From Acidimicrobiales bacterium (lineage in GTDB: Bacteria; Actinomycetota; Acidimicrobiia; Acidimicrobiales; SHLQ01), in NCBI GenBank assembly GCA_020629635.1, contig JAHDCX010000003.1:1-64000 (forward strand): a stretch of DNA of 64,000 nt, given 5' to 3'. Below, piece after piece: positions 44 to 26,852 of the stretch. The position numbers and the translations under genes were made by a program. Position 1 is the stretch's first letter; each line of letters begins with the position of its first letter. Below the pieces are notes generated by a model. It saw nothing but the letters and a program-made list of their open reading frames with translations. It was not told where the DNA came from and made no database searches.

Positions 44-142
44 GCCGTATCCCCCTATGTGATCAAGGACCAAAGTGGTCCGCCGTGGTCACGTTCTTAG
101 CACAACCGGACGCCCAGATGCGCCGATCCGAACCGCACCAAC

Positions 143-1018
143 TCAGAGGTAGCGGACGCCGTGGCGAAGGCTGCCTTCGATGCGGCCGACGACTTGGCCG
201 AAGCGGCGGATCCAGAGTCCGCGGCGGCCGGGATCGAGCAGGTATGGCATCCGCGTCAACGACCAGATCCAGTCACGAACCGTGTCTGCGGTTGACCGGC
301 CAGCCAGACCTTCGGCTCGGTAGTCGCCATACAACTGGGCCATCGATCGGCCGCTTCGCCGCGCCTGATCGAAGATTCCCCGCGTCGTCGTTCGATGGCG
401 ATAATCGATCACCGCATCGGGCGCCCATCCGATCGAGTGACCGGCAGCCGCGGCGCGCCAGCTGAAGTCGATGTCCTCAGACGTCTCGTAGTCGACGCGC
501 ATCCCGCCGAGTGCGTCCCAGACATCTCGACGGACCGCCAGATTGCATGACGCGGCGAACGGCCGAAACCCCGACGGCGCAGGCAGGCCATGAGCGGATG
601 GACTGGGCCGGCTACGGCGCTCCAGGTCGTTGAGTCGTTGGTCGTCGAGTCGACCCCCGACAACTCCATGGCCGACGAGTCCCGTCAGCAGGGCGGCCAT
701 CCATCCGGGCCTCACCTGATCGTCGGCGTCACAGAAGAGCAGGTCGGCCGATCCCGCATGGATCGCCCCCACGTTGCGTGCGGGCCCCGCACCAGGTGTG
801 TCGCTCGCGTCGACGACCGTGATGTCGAGACCCGGCCGGTCGTGGCACGCAGAGACCAGATCGTCGGTGCTGCCGTTGTCGGCCACGATCACCGTCACCG
901 CCTCGCCACCGCGACCGTCGAGGAGTGACGTCGCGTCGGCGGCGAGCGCATCGAGTTGCGCGCCGATCGTCGACGCGCCGTTTCGGACAGGGATCACCAC
1001 GGCGAACTCGCGGGTCAT
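143..1018 (-). CDS. Family 2 glycosyltransferase
   Basis: This 291-residue protein should transfer a sugar from a nucleotide donor at the cytoplasmic face of the membrane; donor and acceptor are unknown. It has the GT-A opening VIPVRN (residues 9-13), ADNGSTDD (46-53), a DXD-type metal site in CDADD (96-100) and a catalytic-base-like ED pair in TSEDIDF (181-182). A longer upstream reading exists, but the ATG at 1018 starts just before the first beta strand and overlaps the upstream gene's stop as ATGA, so I chose it. The C-terminus (GRIEGSLRH) matches the upstream glycosyltransferase (GRLQGSFRH), suggesting tandem duplication. No transmembrane segment is obvious. Confidence 0.85.
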   Translation of the reverse strand: MTREFAVVIPVRNGASTIGAQLDALAADATSLLDGRGGEAVTVIVADNGSTDDLVSACHDRPGLDITVVDASDTPGAGPARNVGAIHAGSADLLFCDADDQVRPGWMAALLTGLVGHGVVGGRLDDQRLNDLERRSRPSPSAHGLPAPSGFRPFAASCNLAVRRDVWDALGGMRVDYETSEDIDFSWRAAAAGHSIGWAPDAVIDYRHRTTTRGIFDQARRSGRSMAQLYGDYRAEGLAGRSTADTVRDWIWSLTRMPYLLDPGRRGLWIRRFGQVVGRIEGSLRHGVRYL

Positions 1019-1887
1019 GGCGCAAATACCCGATGCCGGAACGAGCCCTGGAGCCGTCCAAACCGGCGGCCCGCTCGCCGCGCCCAGGTCGCGCGTCGGC
1101 TGGCGTCTCGAGAGATCGGCGCACGGGTGAGGATCCACCACCAGTCCTTGGCCGCACGTCGGAGCTCGTCTGGCGGCAGAGCTCGTCCGTCGCCGTGTCG
1201 TGACCAGAGCATGGCCTGGCTTGCGCCGTACGCCTTGGCCTGCCCCCACACGGCATCGGGATCGTCACGCAAGCGGAGGTGATAGATGGCCCGGGGTTCG
1301 AAGACGGGTTCGATCCCGTGTGCACGTGCTCGCAGCACGAAGTCGAAGTCCTCGCCCGTCGCCAGCAGCGCCTCGTCGTTGCCGCCCACGAGATTCCAGA
1401 CATCCACCCGCACCCCGCACGCTCCCGCGCACACGGGCATGCCGAAGAGGGTTTCGAGCTTCGACGCCTGAAAGGTGGTTCGGCCAGCGGAGGTGTCGCT
1501 GGCGTTGAGCCGTTCGTACTCGAAGGCGGGGGCGACGATCGGGTGCGTGCCGAGGGCGTCGAGCATTGCCGAAGCCCAGGATTCGGCAACGACGTCGTCG
1601 TCGTCGCAGAAGGCCACCTGGGGTGCTCGCGCTGCGGCGACACCCTGGTTGCGGGCGTGCGCGAGACCCGGACGGGTGGAGGCGTCGATCACCCGAGCGA
1701 CCGTCGGGAAGGTCGTGGCCTCGAAGACGGCGACGGTCGAGTCGGTGCTGCCGTTGTCGACGAGCAGGATCTCCCAGGGCCGATCGATGTCCTGGCCAGC
1801 CAGTGCGTCGAGTTGGTCGGCGATGGTGCGCTCGCCGTTGCGTGAGCACAAGATGACGCTGAGCTCGGGAGCGACGTCTGCCGACAT
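1015..1887 (-). CDS. Family 2 glycosyltransferase (tandem paralog)
   Basis: This 290-residue GT2 enzyme has VILCSRNG (residues 11-18), LVDNGSTDS (42-50), the acidic metal site CDDDD (94-98) and an ED motif in TGEDFDF. It is first in a two-gene leftward operon, with its stop overlapping the next start by 4 nt. Its own start has a TACGAT box 7 nt upstream (1895-1900), so the message is probably leaderless. It is divergent from the epimerase gene at 2010; the 122-bp gap holds a palindrome and three spaced direct repeats. Substrate unknown. Confidence 0.87.
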   Translation of the reverse strand: MSADVAPELSVILCSRNGERTIADQLDALAGQDIDRPWEILLVDNGSTDSTVAVFEATTFPTVARVIDASTRPGLAHARNQGVAAARAPQVAFCDDDDVVAESWASAMLDALGTHPIVAPAFEYERLNASDTSAGRTTFQASKLETLFGMPVCAGACGVRVDVWNLVGGNDEALLATGEDFDFVLRARAHGIEPVFEPRAIYHLRLRDDPDAVWGQAKAYGASQAMLWSRHGDGRALPPDELRRAAKDWWWILTRAPISRDASRRATWARRAGRRFGRLQGSFRHRVFAP

Positions 1888-1894
1888 GACGCCG

Positions 1895-1900
1895 ATCGTA
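1895..1900 (-). promoter_or_regulatory. Leaderless promoter -10 box for the GT2 gene
   Basis: TACGAT on the minus strand, followed by 7 nt and the ATG at 1887. Spacing matches a TANNNT -10 box of a leaderless transcript. No clear -35 element. Confidence 0.5.
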
Positions 1901-1911
1901 CGCTCGGGGCG

Positions 1912-1981
1912 ACCTGAGTCGAACGACTCAGGTGTTGCAGTGTCGAACGACTCAGGTCGAGCAGGGCCGAACGACTCATGG
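1912..1981. repeat. Three 24-bp-spaced repeats with a palindrome (operator candidate)
   Basis: Three copies of (T/C)CGAACGACTCA(G/T)G start at 1919, 1943 and 1967, exactly 24 bp apart, with unrelated spacers. The first copy is also the right half of a perfect inverted repeat, ACCTGAGT (1912-1919) and ACTCAGGT (1926-1933). The third copy merges into the CTCATG promoter element of the epimerase gene. Regular spacing between two divergent promoters suggests cooperative binding of a regulator; no regulator gene is visible nearby. Confidence 0.55.
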
Positions 1982-2002
1982 TGGGCACCCGCGTGCCGAC
2001 GA
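1975..2002 (+). promoter_or_regulatory. Shared alternative-sigma promoter element, epimerase gene
   Basis: CTCATG (1975-1980), 14 nt, GCCGACGA (1995-2002), 7 nt, ATG at 2010. The same geometry occurs at 10160-10187 and, on the minus strand, at 6993-7020. The downstream box resembles the GCCGATAA -10 of the FliA/WhiG sigma family. Confidence 0.6.
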
Positions 2003-2009
2003 GCACGGT

Positions 2010-2993
2010 ATGCACGTGTTGGTCACCGGCGGCGCCGGTTTCATCGGTTCGAATCTCGTCCGCGAGCTCGAGACGCACGGTCACCATGTGGCCGTACTCG
2101 ACGACCTCTCCACCGGCCACGAGTCGAACCTCGACGGCACGTCGGCCGAGTTCGTCCACGGATCGATCCTCGATCGCACGACCCTCGATGGGCTCGTTCG
2201 CTCGGCCGACGCGATCGTGCACCTCGCCGCCCGTTCCTCGGTGCCCCGTTCGCTCGACGACCCGATCGCCTCCCACGAGGTCAATGCCGGTGGCACGCTG
2301 AACGTGTTGGAGTCGGCGCGCCTCGTGTCGGGCGCATCGACGCAACGACAGGTCATCGTGGCCTCGTCGTCGTCGGTGTACGGCGCCAACGCCGAACTTC
2401 CCAAGCGGGAGTGGTCGCCGACTCGGCCGATGAGTCCCTACGCCGCCTCGAAGCTCGCCGCCGAGTCCTACACGCTCGGCCATCGCAGCTCGTTCGACCT
2501 GCCCACCGTGGCATTCCGATTCTTCAACGTGTTCGGCCCGAGGCAGATGCCCGGGCACGCGTACGCGGCGGTGATCCCCGCATTCATCCATGCCGCACTG
2601 ACCGGGACGACGCTGACCGTCCATGGTGACGGAACCCAATCGCGTGACTTCACTCCGGTGGCGACGGTCGTCGCCACCCTGCGGACCGCAGTCGAGTGCC
2701 AGATGTCGTCGGCCGAACCGCTCAACCTCGCCTTCGGCCTGCGGATCACGCTCAACGAGCTGATCGACCGGTTGGCGACACTCGTCGACGCTCCCCTGCT
2801 CGTCGAACACGTCGAGAACCGTCGAGGCGACGTCCCGCACTCCCAAGCCGATCCAACGCTTCTCCGGGAGCACTTCCCCACGATCGAACCGACGTCGTTC
2901 GACGACGCGCTCCTCGCCACGGTCGACTGGATGCGCGGTCACCTCGCGTCGAGTTCGGACACCGTCGTCGATCTGGCGGCGTCCGAACGCTGA
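2010..2993 (+). CDS. NAD-dependent nucleotide-sugar epimerase/dehydratase (extended SDR)
   Basis: This 327-residue cytoplasmic enzyme should interconvert a nucleotide sugar, most plausibly a UDP-hexose 4-epimerase type reaction. It shows the Rossmann motif TGGAGFIGS (residues 6-14), DDLSTG (31-36), HLAARSS (71-77), the catalytic serine region ASSSSVYG and the YAASK motif (Tyr144, Lys148). A longer upstream reading is possible, but ATG 2010 starts exactly at the first beta strand and sits 7 nt after a GCCGACGA promoter box. It overlaps the following phosphoglycosyltransferase start by one base, so both are co-translated. Exact substrate is not readable from sequence. Confidence 0.85.
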   Translation: MHVLVTGGAGFIGSNLVRELETHGHHVAVLDDLSTGHESNLDGTSAEFVHGSILDRTTLDGLVRSADAIVHLAARSSVPRSLDDPIASHEVNAGGTLNVLESARLVSGASTQRQVIVASSSSVYGANAELPKREWSPTRPMSPYAASKLAAESYTLGHRSSFDLPTVAFRFFNVFGPRQMPGHAYAAVIPAFIHAALTGTTLTVHGDGTQSRDFTPVATVVATLRTAVECQMSSAEPLNLAFGLRITLNELIDRLATLVDAPLLVEHVENRRGDVPHSQADPTLLREHFPTIEPTSFDDALLATVDWMRGHLASSSDTVVDLAASER

Positions 2994-3613
2994 TGGGCAC
3001 GACGGCTGGCGCAGCACGGCGCAGCACGGGGCGGCTCCGCCTCGTCGACCTGGCGATCGTGTGCGCAACCGCACCGATCTGGGCGCCGGCGCTGGCCGTG
3101 TTGTCGGCGGTCGTGCTGGTCACGAGCGGCCGACCGGTCCTGTTTCGCCAGGAGCGGATCGGACGTCACGGCCGACCGTTCGTGATGCACAAGTTCAGGA
3201 CCATGCGCACCGGCCCGAATCCGCTGGTGCCCGACCCCGACCGGATCACGCCGATCGGCCGGTGGCTCCGGCGCACCTCGCTCGACGAGCTGCCCCAGCT
3301 GGTCGACGTCCTCCGAGGCGACATGAGTCTCGTCGGACCTCGCCCGATGCTGCCGACCCAAGCCGACCGTCTGGACCGCCGACAGTCCGCTCGCCACGAC
3401 ACCCGCCCCGGCATGACGGGCATGGCCCAAACCCGGGGACGCAACCGGCTCGACTGGTCCGAACGCATCGAACTCGACCTGCGATGGACGACGACGGCGA
3501 GCGTGTCGGTGTACCTCGACGAACTCCGCCGAACCCCGTCGGCCGTGCTCGACCTCCGAGGCGTGACCGGCCACTCCACCGCTGATCGATTCGTCCGTGA
3601 GGGCACCGAATGA
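2993..3613 (+). CDS. Polyprenyl-phosphate phosphoglycosyltransferase (PglC-like)
   Basis: A 206-residue monotopic bacterial sugar transferase that should move a sugar-1-phosphate from a UDP-sugar to undecaprenyl phosphate, the committed step of glycan assembly. It has one hydrophobic segment (about residues 19-45), HKFRTM (66-71), the catalytic Asp-Glu pair in TSLDELPQ (98-99) and MSLVGPRP (111-118). It lacks the large four-helix N-terminal region of WbaP-type enzymes, so it is the small PglC size class. It starts in TGATG with the epimerase and ends in ATGA with the acetyltransferase, giving a tight three-gene operon. The CapD-like dehydratase at 5120-6985 would fit the same pathway. Confidence 0.9.
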   Translation: MGTTAGAARRSTGRLRLVDLAIVCATAPIWAPALAVLSAVVLVTSGRPVLFRQERIGRHGRPFVMHKFRTMRTGPNPLVPDPDRITPIGRWLRRTSLDELPQLVDVLRGDMSLVGPRPMLPTQADRLDRRQSARHDTRPGMTGMAQTRGRNRLDWSERIELDLRWTTTASVSVYLDELRRTPSAVLDLRGVTGHSTADRFVREGTE

Positions 3614-5119: not shown

Positions 5120-6985
5120 TCAGACGAGGGTGATCGAGTCGACTCGCTCCTCGCCGGCGAGCATCGCCAGCGAATCTCTTGCGCGGTCCGGCGTGGAGTC
5201 GTCGAATCGCCCGAGCTGACCCGGCGCCAGGGGCGGGATCGCCACGTGGGAGATCAGCGGGTGGCTGCGGCGAATGTCGAGTTCGCCCTCGCCGACCAGG
5301 TCCTCGTGCAGCTTCTCTCCCTGCCGAAGACCGGTGAACTCGATGTCGACCGGACCCGGAGCGGCCACCGCGAGGCGACGAGCCACGTCGAGGATGCGGA
5401 CGGGTTCGCCCATGTCGAGCACGAGCGCTTCGCCCCTCGACCCGACGGCAGCGGCCTGCACCACGAGCTGTGCGGCCTCGCTCGGCGTCATGAAGTAGCG
5501 GGTGACCTCGGGATGGGTGACGGTGATCGGGCCACCGGCCGCGACCTGGGCCCGAAACGCCTCGAGCACCGAACCTCGGGAGCCGAGTACGTTGCCGAAG
5601 CGCACGCTCACCCAATCGCCGTGCACCCGGTTGGCGTACCAGGCGGTGAGGAGCTCGGCGACGCGCTTGCTGTACCCGAGCACGCTGCTCGGCGACGCTG
5701 CCTTGTCGGTGGAGATGTTGACCACGTGGGTCGCGCCGACCTGCGCCGCGGCACGCAGCACGTTGTTGGTCCCGAGCACGTTCGTCTTCCACGCCTCGGT
5801 CGGATACATCTCGAGCAGCGGCAGATGTTTGAGTGCGGCGGCGTGAAACACCACGTGCGGTTGATGTTCGGCGAAGACGCTGGCGATCCGGCCGGCATCA
5901 CGAATGTCGGCGACCACGAGGGTCCGCTCGTCGAGCAGGGCGCGACCTTCGAGCGACAGCTGCACACCGTGCAGACCAGACTCGTCCCGGTCGACCATGA
6001 TCAGTGACTCGGGGCCGAAACGCGAGAGCTGACGGCACAACTCCGATCCGATGGAGCCTCCGGCGCCGGTCACGAGGACCCGGCGACCGGTCACATACGA
6101 CGCGATCGCGTCGAGATCCATGTCGATGGCTCGGCGGCCGAGCAGGTCGTCGTCGGCGAGCTGACGAATGTCCTCGAGCCGAACGACACCATCAACGAGC
6201 TCCTGCGTCGGCGGGAGGATTCGCACGTCGAGACCGGCGTCTTCGGCAAGCGTCGCCACCTCTCGGATGACCGATGCGCCTGCGCTCGGGATGGCGATCA
6301 GCAGTGTGCGACAGCGCGTCGCACGAGCGACCGCGGCGAGGTCGTGTCGCCCCCCGGCGACCGGAATACCACCGAGTCGCAGGTTCTGTTTGCGGGGGTC
6401 GTCGTCGAGCATGGCGACCGGCCGATACCGCGAGTTCCGGTTGCGCTGCATGGCGGAGATCACTTGTGCCGCACCGTCGCCGGCGCCGAAGACCAGGACG
6501 GGCGCCAGATCGTCGACCCGGCCCGCCGGTCGTGGTGAGCGTTGTGCGCGATGGATCGCTCGCACCGCGCCCGCCGCGAACAAGGCGACAAACGGAGAGA
6601 GGGTGTCGAAACCGATCGCGACGCCTCGCCAGGCGAAAACGGTGCGGACGGACAGCAGGATTGCGCTGGTCGCTGCGGTGCAGGCCGTCAGCGCGACGGC
6701 TTCGTCGTAGCTCCCGATCCGCCAGCGTCCGCGGTAGAGGCCCGCAACGCTGCCGACCACGAGGTTGACCGCAACAGCAACCAACGACGCGGCCACGAGA
6801 TGGCGAATCGACGTCCCGGCCGCCGCCGCGCCGATCGCGACGGCGCAGAACCAGATCAAGGAGTCGACCACGACACGGAGACTCCGGAGATCGGCGAAGA
6901 CCCGACGGAGGCGTCCGACCCCCGAGGCGTTGCCGCCCCGGGGGGACGCGTGCCTACTCCGCTCGCGTTGAAATGTGTTGGCCAT
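5120..6985 (-). CDS. CapD/PglF-like nucleotide-sugar 4,6-dehydratase, membrane-bound
   Basis: This 621-residue protein has four N-terminal transmembrane helices (about residues 38-60, 64-86, 95-118, 126-145), a first Rossmann-type domain with VFGAGDGAAQ (166-174), and a C-terminal extended SDR domain: TGAGGSIGSE (306-315), HAAALKHLP (381-389), STDKAASP (425-432) and a conserved lysine in LGYSKR (440). Length and order match UDP-N-acetylglucosamine 4,6-dehydratases such as PglF/WbpM/CapD. It would make the UDP-4-keto-6-deoxy sugar for the nearby transferase and acetyltransferase. The ATG at 6985 is 7 nt after a TCCGACGG box, so the transcript is probably leaderless. It is divergent from the DUF4012 gene. 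Confidence 0.88.
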   Translation of the reverse strand: MANTFQRERSRHASPRGGNASGVGRLRRVFADLRSLRVVVDSLIWFCAVAIGAAAAGTSIRHLVAASLVAVAVNLVVGSVAGLYRGRWRIGSYDEAVALTACTAATSAILLSVRTVFAWRGVAIGFDTLSPFVALFAAGAVRAIHRAQRSPRPAGRVDDLAPVLVFGAGDGAAQVISAMQRNRNSRYRPVAMLDDDPRKQNLRLGGIPVAGGRHDLAAVARATRCRTLLIAIPSAGASVIREVATLAEDAGLDVRILPPTQELVDGVVRLEDIRQLADDDLLGRRAIDMDLDAIASYVTGRRVLVTGAGGSIGSELCRQLSRFGPESLIMVDRDESGLHGVQLSLEGRALLDERTLVVADIRDAGRIASVFAEHQPHVVFHAAALKHLPLLEMYPTEAWKTNVLGTNNVLRAAAQVGATHVVNISTDKAASPSSVLGYSKRVAELLTAWYANRVHGDWVSVRFGNVLGSRGSVLEAFRAQVAAGGPITVTHPEVTRYFMTPSEAAQLVVQAAAVGSRGEALVLDMGEPVRILDVARRLAVAAPGPVDIEFTGLRQGEKLHEDLVGEGELDIRRSHPLISHVAIPPLAPGQLGRFDDSTPDRARDSLAMLAGEERVDSITLV

Positions 6986-6992
6986 CCCCGCT

Positions 6993-7020
6993 CCGTCGGA
7001 TGGGCCGAGCGGATCATGAG
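6993..7020 (-). promoter_or_regulatory. Shared alternative-sigma promoter element, capD-like gene
   Basis: On the minus strand: CTCATG (7015-7020), 14 nt, TCCGACGG (6993-7000), 7 nt, ATG at 6985. The geometry is identical to the elements before 2010 and 10195. Confidence 0.6.
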
Positions 7021-7068
7021 CTGCCGCTGGGTCAAAGTTCCTGCGGACCAGCGATGGGGGCCAAACGG

Positions 7069-7096
7069 CTCATGAGCGGGGCGTGTCGTCCGACCG
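7069..7096 (+). promoter_or_regulatory. Shared alternative-sigma promoter element, DUF4012 gene
   Basis: CTCATG (7069-7074), 14 nt, TCCGACCG (7089-7096). Here the predicted start site is near 7104, leaving a leader of about 49 nt before ATG 7153. The hexamer sits in the palindrome GCTCATGAGC (7068-7077) and is preceded by CCAAACGG, as at 10152. A second palindrome, GCGTCCGGACGC, lies in the leader. Confidence 0.5.
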
Positions 7097-7152
7097 GAAC
7101 CCGATTGTCCGGAGCGTCCGGACGCTCGCCGCCCCACCAGCGGGCACACCGA

Positions 7153-9447
7153 ATGACCATCACGCACAGCATCGACGACGTGCTCGTCATCGACACCGGT
7201 ACCTCGCCGACAGAGAAACCGTCGCGTCATGATCCGATCGGCGCGATCGGGCTCGTGGCCGGACTCATCGTGGCCGGTCTCACCAGCGCTCAACCCACCG
7301 GGCTGCGCGCCTTCGACCTGATCGAGGTCGTCGCCGCGATGGCCGCCGTGGTCTGGTTTGGCTCTCGGGCTCGCACGCTCCCCCGAGCGATCGCCTCCGG
7401 ACTGGCGTTCGCCGTCTCCGCCACCCTTGTCGCTCAGCTTCTGGCGTTGCTGTCGCTCGTCGGAGTTGCCTGGACGTTGCGCCACCGTCGGCACCGCACG
7501 GCCATCGACGCCGTCGTGGTCGCGCTGATCGGCCCCGCCCTCGCAACACAGGGCGAAGGGCTCCTCGGACCCGGGTCGAGCACCGCGATCGCCGTCGCGG
7601 TCGGGGCGCTTCTGATCGGTTCGGGATGGACCCGGACCTCGCGGAGGAAACGCCGTCGGTATCGACACGCCATCCGCTGGGCCACGATCGCCGTCGTCGC
7701 GTTCTCCACGGTCGCCGCGGCCGCCGCCCTCTCGGTGCGCGGGCCGCTGCTCGACGGACTCGCCGCAGCAGAGTCCGCGGTCGATCACACTCGCGCCGGC
7801 GAGCTCGATGCCGCCGTCGATGCATTCGAAGATGCATCCGACGCCTGGCGGACTGCCGAACGACGACTCTCGGGCCCGTGGATGCTTCCCTCGCGAGCCG
7901 TGCCCGTCGTCGGCCAACACGTTCGCGCCACCCAGATCGCCGCAAGCCAGGCCGCCGCCATGGCCGACGCTTCCGCCGAAGTATTCGATCGGGCGGGCGC
8001 CCGGCCGATCATTGCGGACGGCCAGGTCGACCCGATCGCCGTCGGCCGGGTCGAACCCGCGTTGGACGCGCTCGCCCAAACGGCCTCCGCCTCGGCCGAA
8101 CGCCTCGGTCAGGCCCGCTCGATGTGGCTCCTCCCCCCGGTGGGCGACCGACTCGACCAGGCGTCGTCCATGCTCGATCCGGCCGCCGACCTGCTCCAGG
8201 CTTCCGCGGACGCCGTCGGCATCGCGGCCGCGGTGCTCGCCACCGAGCAGGCCGACGTGGTGGTCGCCTTCAGTACGCCGGCCGAATCTCGGGCCGGTGG
8301 CGGGTTCGTCGGCAGCTGGGCGCACCTTCGTGTCGTTCGTGGAGACGTCGAACTCGTCGACGTGCTCCGGTCGAAGCAACTCAACGACGCTCTCGAAGCC
8401 ACCAACGCCCAACTTCCCGAAATCGCCGACTACGAACGTCGGTACGGGCGCTTCGACGTCGAGCGCCACATCCAGGATGTCGCCTTGCACCCCGACGGCC
8501 CGACCTCTGGCGCCGTCGCTGCGTCCCTGTTCGAACAAGCCACCGGCATCGCGCCGGACATGTTGGTCGTCGTCGACCCCCGGGTCTTCGACGTGCTGTT
8601 GAGCTTCACCGGCCCCATCGAGGCGGCGGGCCTCCGGGTCGGCGCAACCAACGCGAGCGACGTGCTGCTCCGGACGCAGTACTCGGCGTTCGCCGAGGAC
8701 GATCCGGCTCGCGAGGTCCTGCTGGCCACCCTGCTCGCCGAGGGCGTCGATCGGCTCCTCGCCGAACCGCCTCCGCCGACCGCCCTCGCGAGCGAGCTTG
8801 CGCCGCTCGCCCGCCGTGGTCACCTGCGGGTCTGGATGCCATCCGAAGCCGATGCCGCGACCTTGGCGGCGTTGGGCATCGACGGGGCATTCGGGGCACC
8901 GCCTGCCGGCGAGGACGTCATTGCGCTCACCCACCAGAACGCCGGGCAGAACAAGATCGACGCATGGCTTCGCCGCGACCTCGACATCGCCAGCTCGGTG
9001 AGGGTGGTCGACGGACGCCCACACCTCACTCACGAGATCGCCGTGACGCTGCACAACGACGCCACGCTCGACGGCTCGTTGCCCGACGCCGTAATCGGAT
9101 CGAACGACCAGGGCCTGCCACCCGGCAGCAACCGCATGACCCTGTCGGTGTACTCCACGCTCGAACTCCGAGATGCTCGAGTCGACGGAGAGACTGCCGC
9201 CGTCGATGCCGACCGAGAGGCTGGCCTCGCCGTCTATTCGCTGCATGTCGTGGTTCCGGCCGGAGAGTCGGTCCGGGTCGAGCTCGAGCTCGATCACGAA
9301 CTCGCATCGCTCGACCAGGCGGTGCCTGTGGAGCTGCGCGTCCGGCCGAGCGCCCAACCAGACCAGGTGCGCTGGGCGGTGGGCGACGCGGTCGTCTTCG
9401 ACGACCGCCAGCTCGACGATGTGCGTGTCGTCGTCGAGGCCCCATGA
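7153..9447 (+). CDS. DUF4012 membrane protein
   Basis: A 764-residue envelope protein with several hydrophobic N-terminal segments (roughly residues 25-150) and another near 165-185, then a long extracytoplasmic region. The segment with FSTPAESRAGGGFVGSWA and the following GxF-type repeats are typical of DUF4012 proteins of actinobacterial polysaccharide loci; their biochemical role is unknown. ATG 7153 was preferred over the longer reading because upstream codons cross the divergent promoter region and look non-coding. The Gly-Gly-Phe segment recalls the LytR-CpsA-Psr-like region seen in this group, but I would not call it an LCP enzyme. The LPxTG-like protein follows 49 bp downstream. Confidence 0.75.
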   Translation: MTITHSIDDVLVIDTGTSPTEKPSRHDPIGAIGLVAGLIVAGLTSAQPTGLRAFDLIEVVAAMAAVVWFGSRARTLPRAIASGLAFAVSATLVAQLLALLSLVGVAWTLRHRRHRTAIDAVVVALIGPALATQGEGLLGPGSSTAIAVAVGALLIGSGWTRTSRRKRRRYRHAIRWATIAVVAFSTVAAAAALSVRGPLLDGLAAAESAVDHTRAGELDAAVDAFEDASDAWRTAERRLSGPWMLPSRAVPVVGQHVRATQIAASQAAAMADASAEVFDRAGARPIIADGQVDPIAVGRVEPALDALAQTASASAERLGQARSMWLLPPVGDRLDQASSMLDPAADLLQASADAVGIAAAVLATEQADVVVAFSTPAESRAGGGFVGSWAHLRVVRGDVELVDVLRSKQLNDALEATNAQLPEIADYERRYGRFDVERHIQDVALHPDGPTSGAVAASLFEQATGIAPDMLVVVDPRVFDVLLSFTGPIEAAGLRVGATNASDVLLRTQYSAFAEDDPAREVLLATLLAEGVDRLLAEPPPPTALASELAPLARRGHLRVWMPSEADAATLAALGIDGAFGAPPAGEDVIALTHQNAGQNKIDAWLRRDLDIASSVRVVDGRPHLTHEIAVTLHNDATLDGSLPDAVIGSNDQGLPPGSNRMTLSVYSTLELRDARVDGETAAVDADREAGLAVYSLHVVVPAGESVRVELELDHELASLDQAVPVELRVRPSAQPDQVRWAVGDAVVFDDRQLDDVRVVVEAP

Positions 9448-20087: not shown

Positions 20088-20843
20088 TCAGGCGTCGCCT
20101 TCGAGGCGGCGACGAATGGCCATGTCCTGGGCGGCTTCGAGGCTCGCGACGTCGTTGAGATTGACGTACTCCCCACCCAGATCGAAGGCGACGACGCGAT
20201 GCCCGTCACGGATCATGTCGTCGATGAAGTTGACGAATTCGATCATGGGGCGTCCGCCGTCATACGCCGACTCGAGTTCGTCCATGACCTTGCGTCCAAT
20301 GATGAACGTTGCCATTCCGAGGATGTCGTTGGGAAGAGCGACGGGATTCTCGACCAGGCGAATCACCCGATCGCCGTCCTTTTCGACCGAGAAGTTTCGC
20401 TTGATCAACTCGGGGTCGTCGACGGTCTTGATCGTCACCGCCGCGTCGTAGCTGTCCGGATCGAGCGCGGCGAGTTCGGCGTGGCGGGAGTCCAGGTAGA
20501 ACTCGTCGGCCAACATCACACAACCCTGACGTCCGCCGAGGAACGGCTTGGCGAGGAGCACCGACCATGCCCACCCCTTGTCGAGATGGTTGTTCTCGAC
20601 CCAGTGAATTCGGACGCCGTGTTGGCTGCCGTCACCGAAATGCGCCTGGATCGAGTCGCCCATGTAACCGAGAACGATGACGATCTCCTCGATGCCCATC
20701 TCGTCGCGCATCGTCTCGATGAGCCGTTGAAGATTCGGTTTCCCGTCGATGAGGAACATGCCCTTGTGTTGCTCGTAGGTGTACGGGCGGGCGCGGATAC
20801 CGCTGCCGGCAGCCGGAATGATGCCGACGAGGTTCGATGACAC
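20088..20843 (-). CDS. Sugar-1-phosphate-type nucleotidyltransferase
   Basis: This 251-residue protein has the nucleotidyltransferase signature IIPAAGSGIRARPYTYEQHKGM (lysine near residue 27), GKPNLQRLIE, IVIVLGYMGDSIQAHFGDG and the metal Asp in MLADEFYLD. It should join an NTP to a phosphorylated substrate, releasing pyrophosphate. GTG start at 20843 has a strong GAGGAG site that overlaps the stop of the MtnK-like kinase gene upstream. With that kinase and the phosphatase it forms a leftward three-gene operon. The substrate may be an unusual pentose or an alcohol such as choline (LicC-like), not a common hexose. Confidence 0.8.
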   Translation of the reverse strand: MSSNLVGIIPAAGSGIRARPYTYEQHKGMFLIDGKPNLQRLIETMRDEMGIEEIVIVLGYMGDSIQAHFGDGSQHGVRIHWVENNHLDKGWAWSVLLAKPFLGGRQGCVMLADEFYLDSRHAELAALDPDSYDAAVTIKTVDDPELIKRNFSVEKDGDRVIRLVENPVALPNDILGMATFIIGRKVMDELESAYDGGRPMIEFVNFIDDMIRDGHRVVAFDLGGEYVNLNDVASLEAAQDMAIRRRLEGDA

Positions 20844-20854
20844 GATGGATCTCC

Positions 20855-22093
20855 TCAGATCTGGGTGTTCGAGTAGTAGTCCCGGACAAGATCCTGGACG
20901 CCTGCGATGGTCCCAAGCGTCGACCGCTTCGACATGAGCATCCTGGACAGTTCGAGGTTGGCGATCTCGAGCGAGGCTCGGACTTCGGTGTCCTCGATGT
21001 CTCGGATGTCGGCAACGCCAGCGATGCCCAGTGTGCGCCGGGCCATCGAGCAGGCGGCGAAGCCAATGGTGTCGACGAAGATGTTGGCCATGGTCGACCG
21101 CCGGAACTCGGCAACTTCCTCATCGCTCAACAGGCCATCGACGAGCATCGCCGAATGGGAGGCCGACTCCCAGAGCGCCACAAAGCGCTCGGCGAATCCG
21201 TTCCAAATCGGGGCGATCTGATCGATGCACCACTCGCGGTACTCCGCTCCACCGGGGAGTTGGGACTGGGCGGTTGCGCAGAGCAGGAAGTTCGAGATGA
21301 TCTTGCCGACGTCGAAACCGATCGGACCGAAGTACGCGAACTCCATGTCGATCACGTAGGTCTCGTCCTGATTGACCATCAGCGACCCGGTGTGCAGATC
21401 GGCGTGCAGCAGCGCCTCGGTCTTGGTGAGGAAGAGGTCCTTGTGGTGCAGGACGCCGAGCTTGTACGCGGTGTCGCTGCGGAGGTTCTCGTCGGCCCAT
21501 GCGTCCGTCGTCGGGTTGACGTAGTTGGAGTCGTGGGTCATGTACGGGAACGTGAAGATGAACTCTTCGGTCAACTTGCAGAGCTCGGTGTTGAGCGTGA
21601 ACCGGTCCATCAACTGGCGGCGTTCGATGCTCTCCATCCCGAACGCGCTGGTCCGGAACAGCGTCTCGGCGAGGAACTCGCCGATGTGGCCGGCCACCTT
21701 CGGATAGGTGATTCCGTCGATCATCCCGCGCCGAAGGATGATGTGATCGTCGAGGCACTGCATGACGAGGGTGCTCATCTCCTCGTCGGCGTGGAAGATC
21801 GTCGGCACGAGTTCGGGCACGAGCTCGTTGTAGGCGGTGAGCGCTCGGATCTCGAAGGTCATGCGGTCGCGGCTGAGCGGCCACTCCTCGCCCACCATGC
21901 GCAGGTACGGCACGGCTTGCTTGAGCACGACGGATCGCTCCGGGTGGTCAGCGTTGCGGACCTTGTAGACGTAGTTGAGGTTGCCGTCGCCGACCTCGTC
22001 GATGAGGAGCTCACCGGCGCCGAGATGTTCGTCCACCGCAGCGATGCCCCGCAGATAGGGCGCGACGGCCTCACGGTCGAGAATGCGATACAT
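20855..22093 (-). CDS. S-methyl-5-thioribose kinase (MtnK)-like kinase
   Basis: A 412-residue kinase of the aminoglycoside/choline-kinase fold that most resembles MtnK: DGNLNYVYKV (36-45), VLKQAVPYLRMVGEEWPL (56-73), LCKLTEEFIFTFPY, the catalytic loop LLHADLHTGSLMV (228-240) and metal-binding VIDMEFAYFGPIGFDVG (247-263). MtnK phosphorylates C1 of 5-methylthioribose in methionine salvage. Here no mtnA or other salvage gene is present; instead it sits 5 bp after a phosphatase gene and 11 bp before a nucleotidyltransferase gene. ATG 22093 was chosen because the longer reading runs into the phosphatase. I infer a repurposed kinase for nucleotide-activated sugar synthesis. Confidence 0.75.
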   Translation of the reverse strand: MYRILDREAVAPYLRGIAAVDEHLGAGELLIDEVGDGNLNYVYKVRNADHPERSVVLKQAVPYLRMVGEEWPLSRDRMTFEIRALTAYNELVPELVPTIFHADEEMSTLVMQCLDDHIILRRGMIDGITYPKVAGHIGEFLAETLFRTSAFGMESIERRQLMDRFTLNTELCKLTEEFIFTFPYMTHDSNYVNPTTDAWADENLRSDTAYKLGVLHHKDLFLTKTEALLHADLHTGSLMVNQDETYVIDMEFAYFGPIGFDVGKIISNFLLCATAQSQLPGGAEYREWCIDQIAPIWNGFAERFVALWESASHSAMLVDGLLSDEEVAEFRRSTMANIFVDTIGFAACSMARRTLGIAGVADIRDIEDTEVRASLEIANLELSRMLMSKRSTLGTIAGVQDLVRDYYSNTQI

Positions 22094-22098
22094 CGGGC

Positions 22099-22923
22099 TC
22101 AGCTCTCTCGGACGAAGTTGGTGATGCCGGCACCCTGGATGACCTCGAGCACCTGGTCGTGCACGTGACCGTTGGAGACCAACATGTCGGTCTTGTCGAG
22201 GTTCCATGGGTTGCCGTCGAAATCGCTGACCCGACCACCGGCTTCTTCGGTCGCAAGCGCTCCGGCGGCGACGTCCCACGGCGAGATGTTGAGCGTGGTG
22301 AATGCGTCGACGCGGCCTGCAGCGACCATGTAGGCCTCGATGGCGGCCGAGCCGATTTTGCGGAAGTCCTTGTTTTGCTTGTGAAGGGCGAACTCCATCG
22401 TCGCAAACCGTTGGTTGTCAGGGTCACCACCGGGGCAGCCGACGATGTAGGTGCGATCGAGTTCGGTCGTGTCCGAAACCCGGACCGGCCGACCGTTTAC
22501 CGTGCAACCGTGGCCGCGGCGGGCAACGACGATCTCCTCGATGTACGGGGCGACGATCACACCGGTGATCGGCTCGTTTTCGTACGCCAAGCAGATCGAG
22601 ACGGCGAAGAACGGGTTGTGGTTGAGGAAGTTGCTGCTCCCGTCGAGCGGGTCGACAATCCAGGTGTAGGGGCTGCCGTTGTCGATGTGGCCGGTCTCTT
22701 CGGTCATGAGGTTGTGATCGGGGCACCGGTCGGTGATCAGATCGATGATGATCTTGTCGGCCTCGTGGTCGTTGGACGAGGTGATCTCCTTCGACAGCGT
22801 TCGGGATCCGACCGATTGGATCTCGTCCCCGCCGACCTCGGCCTGATGACGGCGGAAGTTGGCGAGCAGCTGCTTGCCGGCGAGCGTTCCGGCTTCGACG
22901 GCGATGTCCGAGAAGTGGTACAC
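22099..22923 (-). CDS. Inositol monophosphatase family phosphatase
   Basis: This 274-residue Mg-dependent phosphatase has the motifs MTEETGH (73-79), WIVDPLDGSSNF (88-99) and SPWDVAAGALATEEAGGRVSD. The family acts on inositol phosphate, histidinol phosphate, bisphosphate nucleotides and sugar phosphates, so the substrate is open. I chose the GTG at 22923 because GAGG lies 9 nt upstream; the ATG at 23010 is far from the conserved start. It is first in the operon with the MtnK-like kinase and nucleotidyltransferase. A possible TACGCT -10 lies about 41 nt upstream. Confidence 0.82.
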   Translation of the reverse strand: MYHFSDIAVEAGTLAGKQLLANFRRHQAEVGGDEIQSVGSRTLSKEITSSNDHEADKIIIDLITDRCPDHNLMTEETGHIDNGSPYTWIVDPLDGSSNFLNHNPFFAVSICLAYENEPITGVIVAPYIEEIVVARRGHGCTVNGRPVRVSDTTELDRTYIVGCPGGDPDNQRFATMEFALHKQNKDFRKIGSAAIEAYMVAAGRVDAFTTLNISPWDVAAGALATEEAGGRVSDFDGNPWNLDKTDMLVSNGHVHDQVLEVIQGAGITNFVRES

Positions 22924-23181: not shown

Positions 23182-24264
23182 ATGTCAGTCACCGTCGTCA
23201 CGGGATCCGGGGGCCTGATCGGCTCACAGGCCGTCACCCACTTCGCCTCGTCTGCCGACCTCGTCGTCGGCATCGACAACGACATGCGCCAGGAGTTCTT
23301 CGGCGCCGAGGCATCGACCGCGTGGGTCGTCAACGACCTGACGTCGTCGCTCGGCAACTACCGCCACGAATCGCTCGACATCCGAGACGCCGACGCCATG
23401 AACCGGCTCTTCGCCGAGTTCGGCTCCGACATCGAGTTGGTGGTCCACACGGCGGCGCAGCCGTCTCACGACTGGGCGGCTCGCGATCCCCACACCGATT
23501 TCTCGGTCAACGCCAACGGCACGCTCAACCTCCTCGAGGCCACCCGACAGCACTGCCCGAACGCCGTCTTCATCTTCACCTCGACCAACAAGGTCTACGG
23601 AGACACGCCGAACTTCCTTCCGCTCGTCGAACTCGACACCCGCTGGGAGCTCGACCCCACACACGTTTGGGCCGAACACGGGATCCCCGAGGAGATGAGC
23701 GTCGATCAATCGACGCACAGCCTGTTCGGCGCCTCGAAGCTCGCCGCCGACGCGCTGGTCCAGGAGTACGGCCGCTACTTCGACATGAAGACGGCGTCGT
23801 TTCGTGGCGGCTGCCTCACCGGTCCGGATCATTCGGGGGCCGAGCTGCACGGGTTCCTCGCCTACCTCGTGAAGTGCACGGTCATCGGCAGGCCGTACAC
23901 CGTCTTCGGGTACAAGGCGAAGCAGGTGCGAGACAACATTCATGCGAGCGACCTGATCTCGGCGTTCGATCACTTCGCTCGGGCGCCCCGTGTCGCCGAG
24001 GTCTACAACATCGGCGGTGGTCGGGACATCAACTGCTCGATGCTGGAGGCCATCGAGATCGCCGAACGGCTGTCCGGCAACACGCTCGAGTGGACGTACT
24101 CCGACGAGAACCGAATCGGCGATCACATGTGGTACGTCAGCGACATCCGCCGCTTCAAGAACCACTATCCGGACTGGTCGTTCACCTACGACCTCGAGGC
24201 GATCATGGCCGAGATCCACGACAAGATGGCCGAACGCTGGCTCGCCGAGGGCGACGACGCGTGA
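23182..24264 (+). CDS. RfbE-like NAD-dependent epimerase (CDP-paratose 2-epimerase relative)
   Basis: A 360-residue extended SDR. It has [10 protein letters not shown] (7-16), [13 protein letters not shown] (132-144), [23 protein letters not shown] (178-200), [20 protein letters not shown] and [18 protein letters not shown]. These are hallmarks of the subgroup related to CDP-paratose/tyvelose 2-epimerases. The usual catalytic YxxxK reads FxxxK (Phe182, Lys186), which I recall as a feature of this subgroup and not a local mutation. It overlaps the WecG/TagA gene by GTGA. It may convert the product made by the kinase/nucleotidyltransferase set next door. Confidence 0.8.
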
Positions 24265-25885: not shown

Positions 25886-26077
25886 TCAGCTCGACGCAAG
25901 GCGATACCCGCGGTTGCGGGCCTCGGCGGCCGAGTCGGGGCCGAATGTCGCCACCTTCTCGCTGGCGACGAGCTCTTCGATGACCTCGGGGTCGTGCTCC
26001 TCGTCGAGGTCGTACGCAATCTGCGTGCGCTTGTCACCGATGAAGCGGTGTTCCGCATAAGCCTTGGGACGGTCCAT
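25886..26077 (-). CDS. Small hypothetical protein
   Basis: A 63-residue charged protein beginning MDRPKAYAEHRFIGDKRTQ, with a run of acidic residues (DLDEEHDPEVIEELVASE) and ending in NRGYRLASS. I do not recognise a domain. The start at 26077 is supported by a TAGCGT box 8 nt upstream; the longer reading to 26125 would pass through it. It is 5 bp ahead of the alpha/beta hydrolase gene and probably co-transcribed. Its charge pattern suggests a soluble cytoplasmic protein. Confidence 0.6.
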   Translation of the reverse strand: MDRPKAYAEHRFIGDKRTQIAYDLDEEHDPEVIEELVASEKVATFGPDSAAEARNRGYRLASS

Positions 26078-26110
26078 GACCTGCAACGCTAACGGAAACC
26101 CAGACGCGAA

Positions 26111-26141
26111 GAAGGGCCGGGGCATGACGCCCCGACCCTTC
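26111..26141. terminator. Hairpin, probable terminator of the leftward 26.4-28.0 kb transcript
   Basis: GAAGGGCCGGGGC, loop ATGA, CGCCCCGACCCTTC: 13 bp paired with one C-A mismatch. No U-run follows. It lies between the leftward transcript ending at 26415 and the leaderless start at 26077. Confidence 0.6.
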
Positions 26142-26253
26142 CCGATTCGTTCGCTGGAAGACCACTCCCGGCCTCATTCGACGGAGGAACGACGTCCGTC
26201 GGCCGACGAGTGGGGTGCCTGGCTGGAATTCGCCAAGTGGTCCAGCGGGCCCG

Positions 26254-26320
26254 ACCTACCGGCCAGACACCTCCAAGGTTCCAAAATCAGTATGAATGTG
26301 GACCACCTCCTTCCTTTGGT
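26254..26320 (-). other. Orphan strong ribosome-binding site with a possible short ORF
   Basis: Minus strand: AAGGAAGGAGGTGG (about 26303-26316), the strongest Shine-Dalgarno-like sequence in the window, is followed 8 nt later by ATT CAT ACT ... reading IHTDFGTLEVSGR then TAG (26256-26297). A +1 shift near the stop would open another 26 codons (reading SGPLDHLANSSQAPHSSADG...). There is no ATG/GTG/TTG at the right distance, so translation is speculative. Part of the 337-bp gap between 26078 and 26414, which otherwise holds only the hairpin and the inverted-repeat element. Confidence 0.25.
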
Positions 26321-26339: not shown

Positions 26340-26428
26340 GGGGTCAGGTCTGACATAGCAAGAGGTTGCGGCATCGTCCGCATGGTGAGCGCCGTGACCA
26401 AACCTGTTGCTATGTCAGACTTGACCCC
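26340..26428. repeat. 89-bp element with 22-bp terminal inverted repeats
   Basis: The left arm (26340-26361, GGGGTCAGGTCTGACATAGC then AA) and the right arm (26407-26428) are inverse copies with one mismatch in 22. The 45-bp centre has no gene. Arms of this GGGGTCAG/TCTGACAT type resemble REP-like or MITE elements mobilised by Y1 transposases; no transposase is in the window. The right arm supplies the last codons and TGA of the neighbouring gene. Confidence 0.8.
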
Positions 26429-26852
26429 CGACGGCGCCGATGTCGCGCAGGTAGGTGAGGAACTCGTCGACGACGACGGTGACGTGCACGCTCTCGAGGT
26501 CGGGGCGCTCGTCCAATCCACGGGCAACGGCGTGTTCGGCGGCGCCGATCTCATCGGCGACGGCCCGTTCTTCTTCGACCCAATCGCCGCCGAGCTCTTC
26601 GCCGAAATCGCTCGCCATGCCGAGCTCGTCGAACCAGTCCAACACCCACCGAATGATCTGGTCGACGTCGTCGTGCGACAGCACCGCCGACACCTCGAAC
26701 GGCAGCGCTTCTGCAACGACCTCGACGGCGTCATCGACCTCGAGCAACGCCGGGGCCATGGTCGACTCGAGCTCGACCGAGACCCGTGACACGGCCACGA
26801 TCGCCACGATGACGACGGCCAACGCGCCCAAGGCAACGAGGAGCCAGATCAT
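26415..26852 (-). CDS. Hypothetical single-pass membrane protein
   Basis: This 145-residue protein starts with a transmembrane helix (MIWLLVALGALAVVIVAIVAVS, about residues 2-20) followed by an acidic soluble region with VDQIIRWVLDWFDELGM and VVVDEFLTYLRDIGAV. I recognise no family. It follows the acyl-CoA dehydrogenase gene in the same direction with a 21-bp gap. Its final residues and stop codon lie inside the right arm of an inverted-repeat element, so the native C-terminus may have been altered. Confidence 0.6.
   Translation of the reverse strand: MIWLLVALGALAVVIVAIVAVSRVSVELESTMAPALLEVDDAVEVVAEALPFEVSAVLSHDDVDQIIRWVLDWFDELGMASDFGEELGGDWVEEERAVADEIGAAEHAVARGLDERPDLESVHVTVVVDEFLTYLRDIGAVGGQV

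Follow-up and report, generated by a model that had tools for sequence, protein, structure and literature searches.

A kinase, a phosphatase and a nucleotidyltransferase acting together are a known logic for activating sugars, as for heptose and, in part, in LicA-LicC. In the GDP/ADP-heptose pathway (HddA/HldE, GmhB, HddC) these three enzyme types convert a sugar phosphate to an NDP-sugar, and LicA-LicC combines an APH-fold kinase with a nucleotidyltransferase. The bacterial ribofuranose routes described so far start from PRPP and are called a notable exception to the use of Leloir donors (PMC11127046); these routes, including those through polyprenyl-phosphoribose, use phosphoribosyltransferases and no sugar nucleotide. 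For the methylthioxylose of M. tuberculosis LAM, work cited in PMC11127046 gives MTA as the starting metabolite and a decaprenyl-phosphate-linked donor. The S-methyl-5-thioribose (MTR) kinases of the MtnK family (TIGR01767; structures 2OLC/2PUN and 2PYW) are annotated as methionine salvage enzymes, and their functional residues were assigned here from published structures (PMC2194712).

We analyzed the first 64,000 nucleotides of contig JAHDCX010000003.1 of an Acidimicrobiales bacterium (hereafter the window), in which three tightly packed genes encode these enzyme types:

22099-22923, minus strand, putative IMPase-superfamily sugar-phosphate phosphatase, operon gene 1 (PF00459, 194 bits)
20855-22093, minus strand, putative MtnK-type sugar C1 kinase, operon gene 2 (TIGR01767, 456.6 bits)
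20088-20843, minus strand, putative RmlA-type sugar-1-phosphate nucleotidyltransferase, operon gene 3 (PF00483, 57.5 bits)

The gaps between them are 5 bp (IMPase to kinase) and 11 bp (kinase to nucleotidyltransferase), and the gene positions and gaps are exactly as given in an earlier reading of the DNA from its letters (the sequence-only reading). The IMPase start codon position was fixed from homologs. A scan for promoters and terminators gave no signal exceeding that of shuffled sequence.

The Pfam families of the three products are named Inositol_P (IMPase), APH (kinase, PF01636) and NTP_transferase (nucleotidyltransferase). The kinase clears the TIGR01767 cut-off of 275 bits and matches the solved MTR kinases 2pyw (E 1.6e-87) and 2olc (E 6.8e-82), while neither of the other two proteins reaches any NCBIfam equivalog model. 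The closest solved structures to the IMPase are the inositol-1-monophosphatases 2p3n and 5zhh; it falls within the PF00459 superfamily and scores under the NCBIfam equivalog cut-offs for HisN (155 versus 275 bits) and inositol-1-monophosphatase (139 versus 332 bits). The AF2 model of the nucleotidyltransferase (pLDDT 76) retrieved RmlA 3zlk as its top Foldseek match (E 3e-14), a likeness of fold only, as the protein scores 101 bits against the rmlA_long cut-off of 320. It is likewise far below the NCBIfam HddC cut-off (27.5 versus 300 bits), and the phosphocholine cytidylyltransferase (LicC) model is absent from its 23 NCBIfam matches.

The sequence-only reading had compared the trio to the heptose and LicA-LicC systems, a comparison that stands as an analogy of enzyme logic but does not extend to the protein families. 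In contrast to the heptose pathway, the trio has an APH/MtnK-type kinase, an IMPase-type phosphatase and a nucleotidyltransferase that falls short of the HddC model. In contrast to LicA-LicC, its kinase belongs to the MTR kinase family and carries that family's ribose-binding residues, a phosphatase is added, and no LicC or phosphocholine model is matched. Its proposed end, a pentofuranose in surface glycans, is shared with the PRPP-based routes; however, the trio has a built-in nucleotidyltransferase, and none of its three genes encodes a glycan phosphoribosyltransferase or polyprenyl-phosphoribose synthase.

The trio is a well-supported three-gene unit. It was found in 17 distinct loci (8 in Acidimicrobiales, 8 in Granulosicoccaceae and other Gammaproteobacteria, and 1 in the alphaproteobacterium Erythrobacter), always in the order IMPase, kinase, nucleotidyltransferase and with spacings of -8 to +35 bp. 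The same order at 16 further loci shows that the arrangement in the window is not due to chance. The 17 loci are linked by descent and transfer and do not represent 17 independent events. Across them, the pairwise distance matrices of the three proteins correlate with r = 0.89-0.90. MtnK is rare in the phylum, with 2 of 396 sampled genomes above the cut-off, one of them the window genome. In a set of 59 genomes, that of the window plus its closest relatives, MtnK exceeds the cut-off in 8, and in 7 of these 8 it belongs to the trio; the congeneric relatives are Acidimicrobiales MAGs. When 84,980 species were scanned for the nucleotidyltransferase, 12 loci were retrieved, all of them relatives at 63-75% identity and spread over two phyla; they include Granulosicoccaceae (Gammaproteobacteria) and Erythrobacter, where all three genes are present. 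Four further trio loci were found in 369 sampled genomes of the class of Granulosicoccaceae, and in those 369 the nucleotidyltransferase profile scores strongly (397-499 bits) in exactly five genomes, which are the ones with the trio kinase.

The GC content of the trio (0.38-0.62) tracks that of each host, and we therefore regard the trio as resident in its hosts. Misbinning as the source of the cross-phylum spread is unlikely given this match and the several MAG series involved; the host-matched base composition points to transfer followed by amelioration. A tblastn search of PLSDB with the nucleotidyltransferase gave no plasmid match, and an IMG/VR scan gave no viral relative. Outside the trios, the closest relative of the nucleotidyltransferase is a distant one (155 bits, in the search of the 369 genomes); it lies in a glycan locus (L168 in G799, 6212-7660), fused to a GT2 protein that we named DPM1-like from its sequence; this fusion suggests that an NDP-sugar is handed directly over to polyprenyl phosphate.

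The sequence-only reading had noted that no methionine-salvage gene lies nearby, and indeed mtnA was not found anywhere in the window genome, which is 96.5% complete. Orthologs sitting mostly beside mtnA would have refuted the sequence-only reading, but mtnA adjoins the trio in 0 of 17 loci, whereas 13 of the 21 non-trio MtnKs in our comparison set have it nearby (10 within 1.5 kb; in L126, L127 and L083, where mtnA was recognized by sequence, it shares the operon or is a few kb off). Nor was mtnA found in 10 of the 13 trio genomes tested. The Erythrobacter genome (G451) holds, apart from its trio, a separate salvage mtnK-mtnA pair on another contig, with mtnA overlapping this second mtnK; in another trio genome (G447), mtnA adjoins an MTAP-like gene. 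MTAP-like phosphorylases occur in 9 of the 13 trio genomes, with scores that are under the curated cut-off and may belong to other phosphorylases. In the window genome, an MtnN-like nucleosidase is matched weakly and MTAP not at all. We also observed a non-trio MtnK gene located after a gene for a class II aldolase-SDR fusion (L025 in G011, 96-3294), possibly a variant deoxypentose shunt; no mtnA was found in that genome.

In an IQ-TREE phylogeny the 17 trio kinases form one clade with support of 100/100 and a long stem (1.44), apart from the salvage MtnKs. Each of the nearest MtnKs to this clade (L156 and L157) shares its operon with mtnA and with genes for a ribose-type ABC transporter and a GntR-like regulator, and these operons probably import methylthioribose or 5-deoxyribose; both MtnKs already have a Phe at the position of B. 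subtilis (Bs) L180. Because the AF2 model of the window kinase was too poor for geometry (pLDDT 68; active site poorly modelled), its pocket was compared on an alignment of the 17 trio and 21 other MtnKs, using Bs MtnK numbering. The following positions of the window kinase are of particular relevance (positions from the alignment, roles from PMC2194712):

21560-21562, minus strand, F178 (Bs L180, cap over the 5-methylthio group)
21398-21400, minus strand, catalytic Asp D232 (Bs D233, HxD loop)
21035-21040, minus strand, twin arginine R352/R353 (Bs R340/R341) of the ribose site, present in 17/17
21023-21025, minus strand, I357 (Bs L345, cap over the 5-methylthio group)

The kinase stretches 228-240 (with D232) and 249-263 (with D249/E251) are as the sequence-only reading had described them. 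All 17 trio kinases have the MtnK motifs described in PMC2194712, namely the GXGNXN loop, DXE, the twin arginine and the W-loop Trp, and invariant among them are the glycines and asparagines of the G-loop, K61, W74, D233, D250/E252, F253 and R340/R341. The catalytic, Mg-binding and ribose-binding residues are thus those of MtnK, and it is the cap around the 5-substituent that has changed: the Bs L180 position is Phe and the Bs L345 position is Ile in 17/17 trio kinases, versus Leu at each in 18 of the 21 others. D184F, K/E337S, H347G and D/E352R are also fixed in 17/17, and the signature F180, F184, S337, I345, G347 and R352 separates trio kinases from the other MtnKs compared here. The HGD catalytic motif, described as strictly conserved in MTR kinases (PMC2194712), is found in 8/17 and is replaced by HAD in the window and 9/17 in all, the Asp itself being kept in 17/17. 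We would like to note that even MtnKs do not strictly conserve L180 and L345, and that L180F and L345I alone do not exclude MTR as a substrate, because MTR kinases tolerate bulky and varied 5-substituents (PMC2194712). The straightforward reading, offered as a pointer from the alignment, is that the trio kinase would still act on a ribo-configured furanose, phosphorylating its alpha C1 hydroxyl, and that selection has reshaped its pocket near the 5-substituent.

The genes around the trio suggest where its product may go. The sequence-only reading had named an epimerase and a transferase divergent from the trio, and both their identities and their orientation are borne out:

23182-24264, plus strand, RfbE-like (CDP-tyvelose 2-epimerase-like) SDR, divergent; best solved structure 1orr, 122 bits
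24261-25034, plus strand, WecG/TagA (GT26-type) glycosyltransferase, divergent, of uncertain pathway membership (PF03808, 169 bits)

Close to the trio, L024 and L048 also encode the epimerase (82% and 67%, respectively), accompanied in both by the WecG/TagA gene; that it is a downstream C2 epimerase acting on the NDP-sugar of the trio is speculative. At 31-36 kb of the window, Wzc-like, O-antigen-ligase-like and flippase-like genes were recognized by eye, and the window at large has the appearance of a surface-glycan region. The trio is conserved in distant taxa, often with glycan genes: within a few kb of it, at one locus or another, are genes for GT2, GT4, GT61, DUF5672, O-antigen ligase, Wzm/Wzt, a WecA-like initiating transferase and UDP-glucose dehydrogenase. 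Several of the 17 loci are short fragments, and this context was judged at the longer ones; a glycan role of the trio is well supported. A GT2-like protein is encoded immediately after the trio in six Acidimicrobiales loci (L019-L022, L024 and L048) and was not found in the window; this protein could be the enzyme that uses the NDP-sugar. Five loci from two phyla (L019, L020, L048, L052 and L114) have a gene for a DXR-like (DRL) oxidoreductase near the trio, together with RmlC in L048 and L114 and with the CDP-glucose pathway genes RfbF in L114 and RfbG in L020. This glycan module, whose product may be an unusual or branched CDP-sugar, is recurrent and not obligate for the trio (DRL in 5/17 loci). 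Elsewhere in the window, the actinobacterial sRNA Ms_IGR-5 of Rfam is matched at 26156-26320 on the minus strand (50.8 bits, gathering score 45), with a short ORF (25886-26125) on one side and an ORF at 26415-26852 on the other.

We propose, at about even confidence, that the trio is a cytoplasmic pathway to a nucleotide-activated pentofuranose for surface glycans, for which we infer step order, substrate and nucleotide. The IMPase would strip the phosphate from its substrate, a sugar phosphate that is most likely ribose 5-phosphate, to give free ribose; the kinase would then phosphorylate the alpha-anomeric C1 hydroxyl of this ribofuranose-type sugar to give alpha-ribose 1-phosphate; and the nucleotidyltransferase would join the sugar 1-phosphate and an NTP into an NDP-ribofuranose-type donor for the neighboring glycosyltransferases. 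The RmlA fold of the nucleotidyltransferase acts on sugar 1-phosphates, the product of an MtnK-type kinase, and the phosphatase gene in every trio fits a phosphorylated input that is opened before C1 phosphorylation. The NDP-pentose guessed in the sequence-only reading is consistent with these data. That the substrate is ribose itself is plausible at somewhat short of even confidence, the remainder being shared by other ribo-configured sugars. Against the proposal, a phosphopentomutase could provide ribose 1-phosphate without the phosphatase and the kinase, leaving the detour unexplained, and the kinase scores well over the cut-off for MTR kinases. More tentatively, and with some doubt, the trio may lead to cytoplasmic NDP-D-ribofuranose as a Leloir-type donor, which the RfbE-like C2 epimerase, where present (the window, L024 and L048), could convert to NDP-D-arabinofuranose, avoiding the lipid-linked route.

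The main rival to the NDP-ribofuranose reading, which we consider rather unlikely, is an NDP-methylthiopentose route in which methylthioribose derived from MTA is converted to MTR 1-phosphate and then to NDP-MTR, perhaps epimerized, and ends as a sulfur sugar comparable to the methylthioxylose that caps mycobacterial lipoarabinomannan. The TIGR01767 score of the kinase (456.6 versus 275 bits) and the retention of W74, the twin arginine, D233 and F253 in the trio kinases fit such a route, as does the window genome's enzyme content, an MtnN-like nucleosidase match (weak) without an MTAP match. The methylthioxylose of M. tuberculosis LAM, derived from MTA in work cited in PMC11127046, is a precedent: pentose 1-phosphate-type chemistry that feeds a glycan from an adenosine metabolite would be analogous, although the MTA start and the decaprenyl-phosphate-linked donor are known from that pathway and not from trio loci. 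However, the route leaves the phosphatase, present in 17/17, without a job; the methylthio-capping residues are replaced in 17/17; no trio includes a nucleosidase gene; and the MTAP-like phosphorylases of 9/13 trio genomes (sub-cut-off matches) would yield MTR 1-phosphate without any kinase. Fairly improbable, too, is a different ribo-configured furanose, such as 5-deoxyribose or a larger or branched 5-substituted sugar, whose phosphate ester the IMPase would open. The changes in the kinase pocket are compatible with an altered 5-substituent, and DRL reductases accompany the trio at five loci, some of which also have RfbF, RfbG or RmlC genes; but these are five of 17, and the DRL genes seemingly form a separate glycan module without a direct link to the trio.

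Two further explanations would give one of the three genes a more ordinary role. The kinase and nucleotidyltransferase could perform the activation by themselves in the style of LicA-LicC, with the IMPase as a general helper, for example in by-product clean-up. Enzymes of the IMPase family are broad, and the best equivalog models score below cut-off for this one (HisN, 155 versus 275 bits); yet its gene heads the operon in 17/17 and its distances track those of the other two proteins (r about 0.9), which makes the helper role highly doubtful. Lastly, the kinase could be an ordinary enzyme of methionine salvage or the DHAP shunt that happens to adjoin glycan genes, as its family name and TIGR01767 score would have it. 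Gene context and genome content led us to reject this very improbable role, which is already contradicted by the absence of adjacent mtnA in 17/17 loci and of any detected mtnA in 10/13 trio genomes, by the separate clade, and by the genome that holds both salvage and trio forms. The trio kinase gene always lies between phosphatase and nucleotidyltransferase genes.

We found no description of an MtnK-type kinase in a nucleotide-sugar operon in the open literature (most subscription journals lie outside this scope), and the words nucleotidyltransferase and polysaccharide are absent from the text of a methionine salvage review. The trio is probably an unrecognized candidate way of activating a five-carbon sugar, which may be ribose, and a whole clade of a kinase family annotated as methionine salvage moves to apparent glycan precursor synthesis. 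If the product is NDP-ribofuranose, a nucleotide-sugar route would be added for a sugar described as the PRPP-made exception; if it is an NDP-methylthiopentose, sulfur sugars would be revealed outside the mycobacteria.
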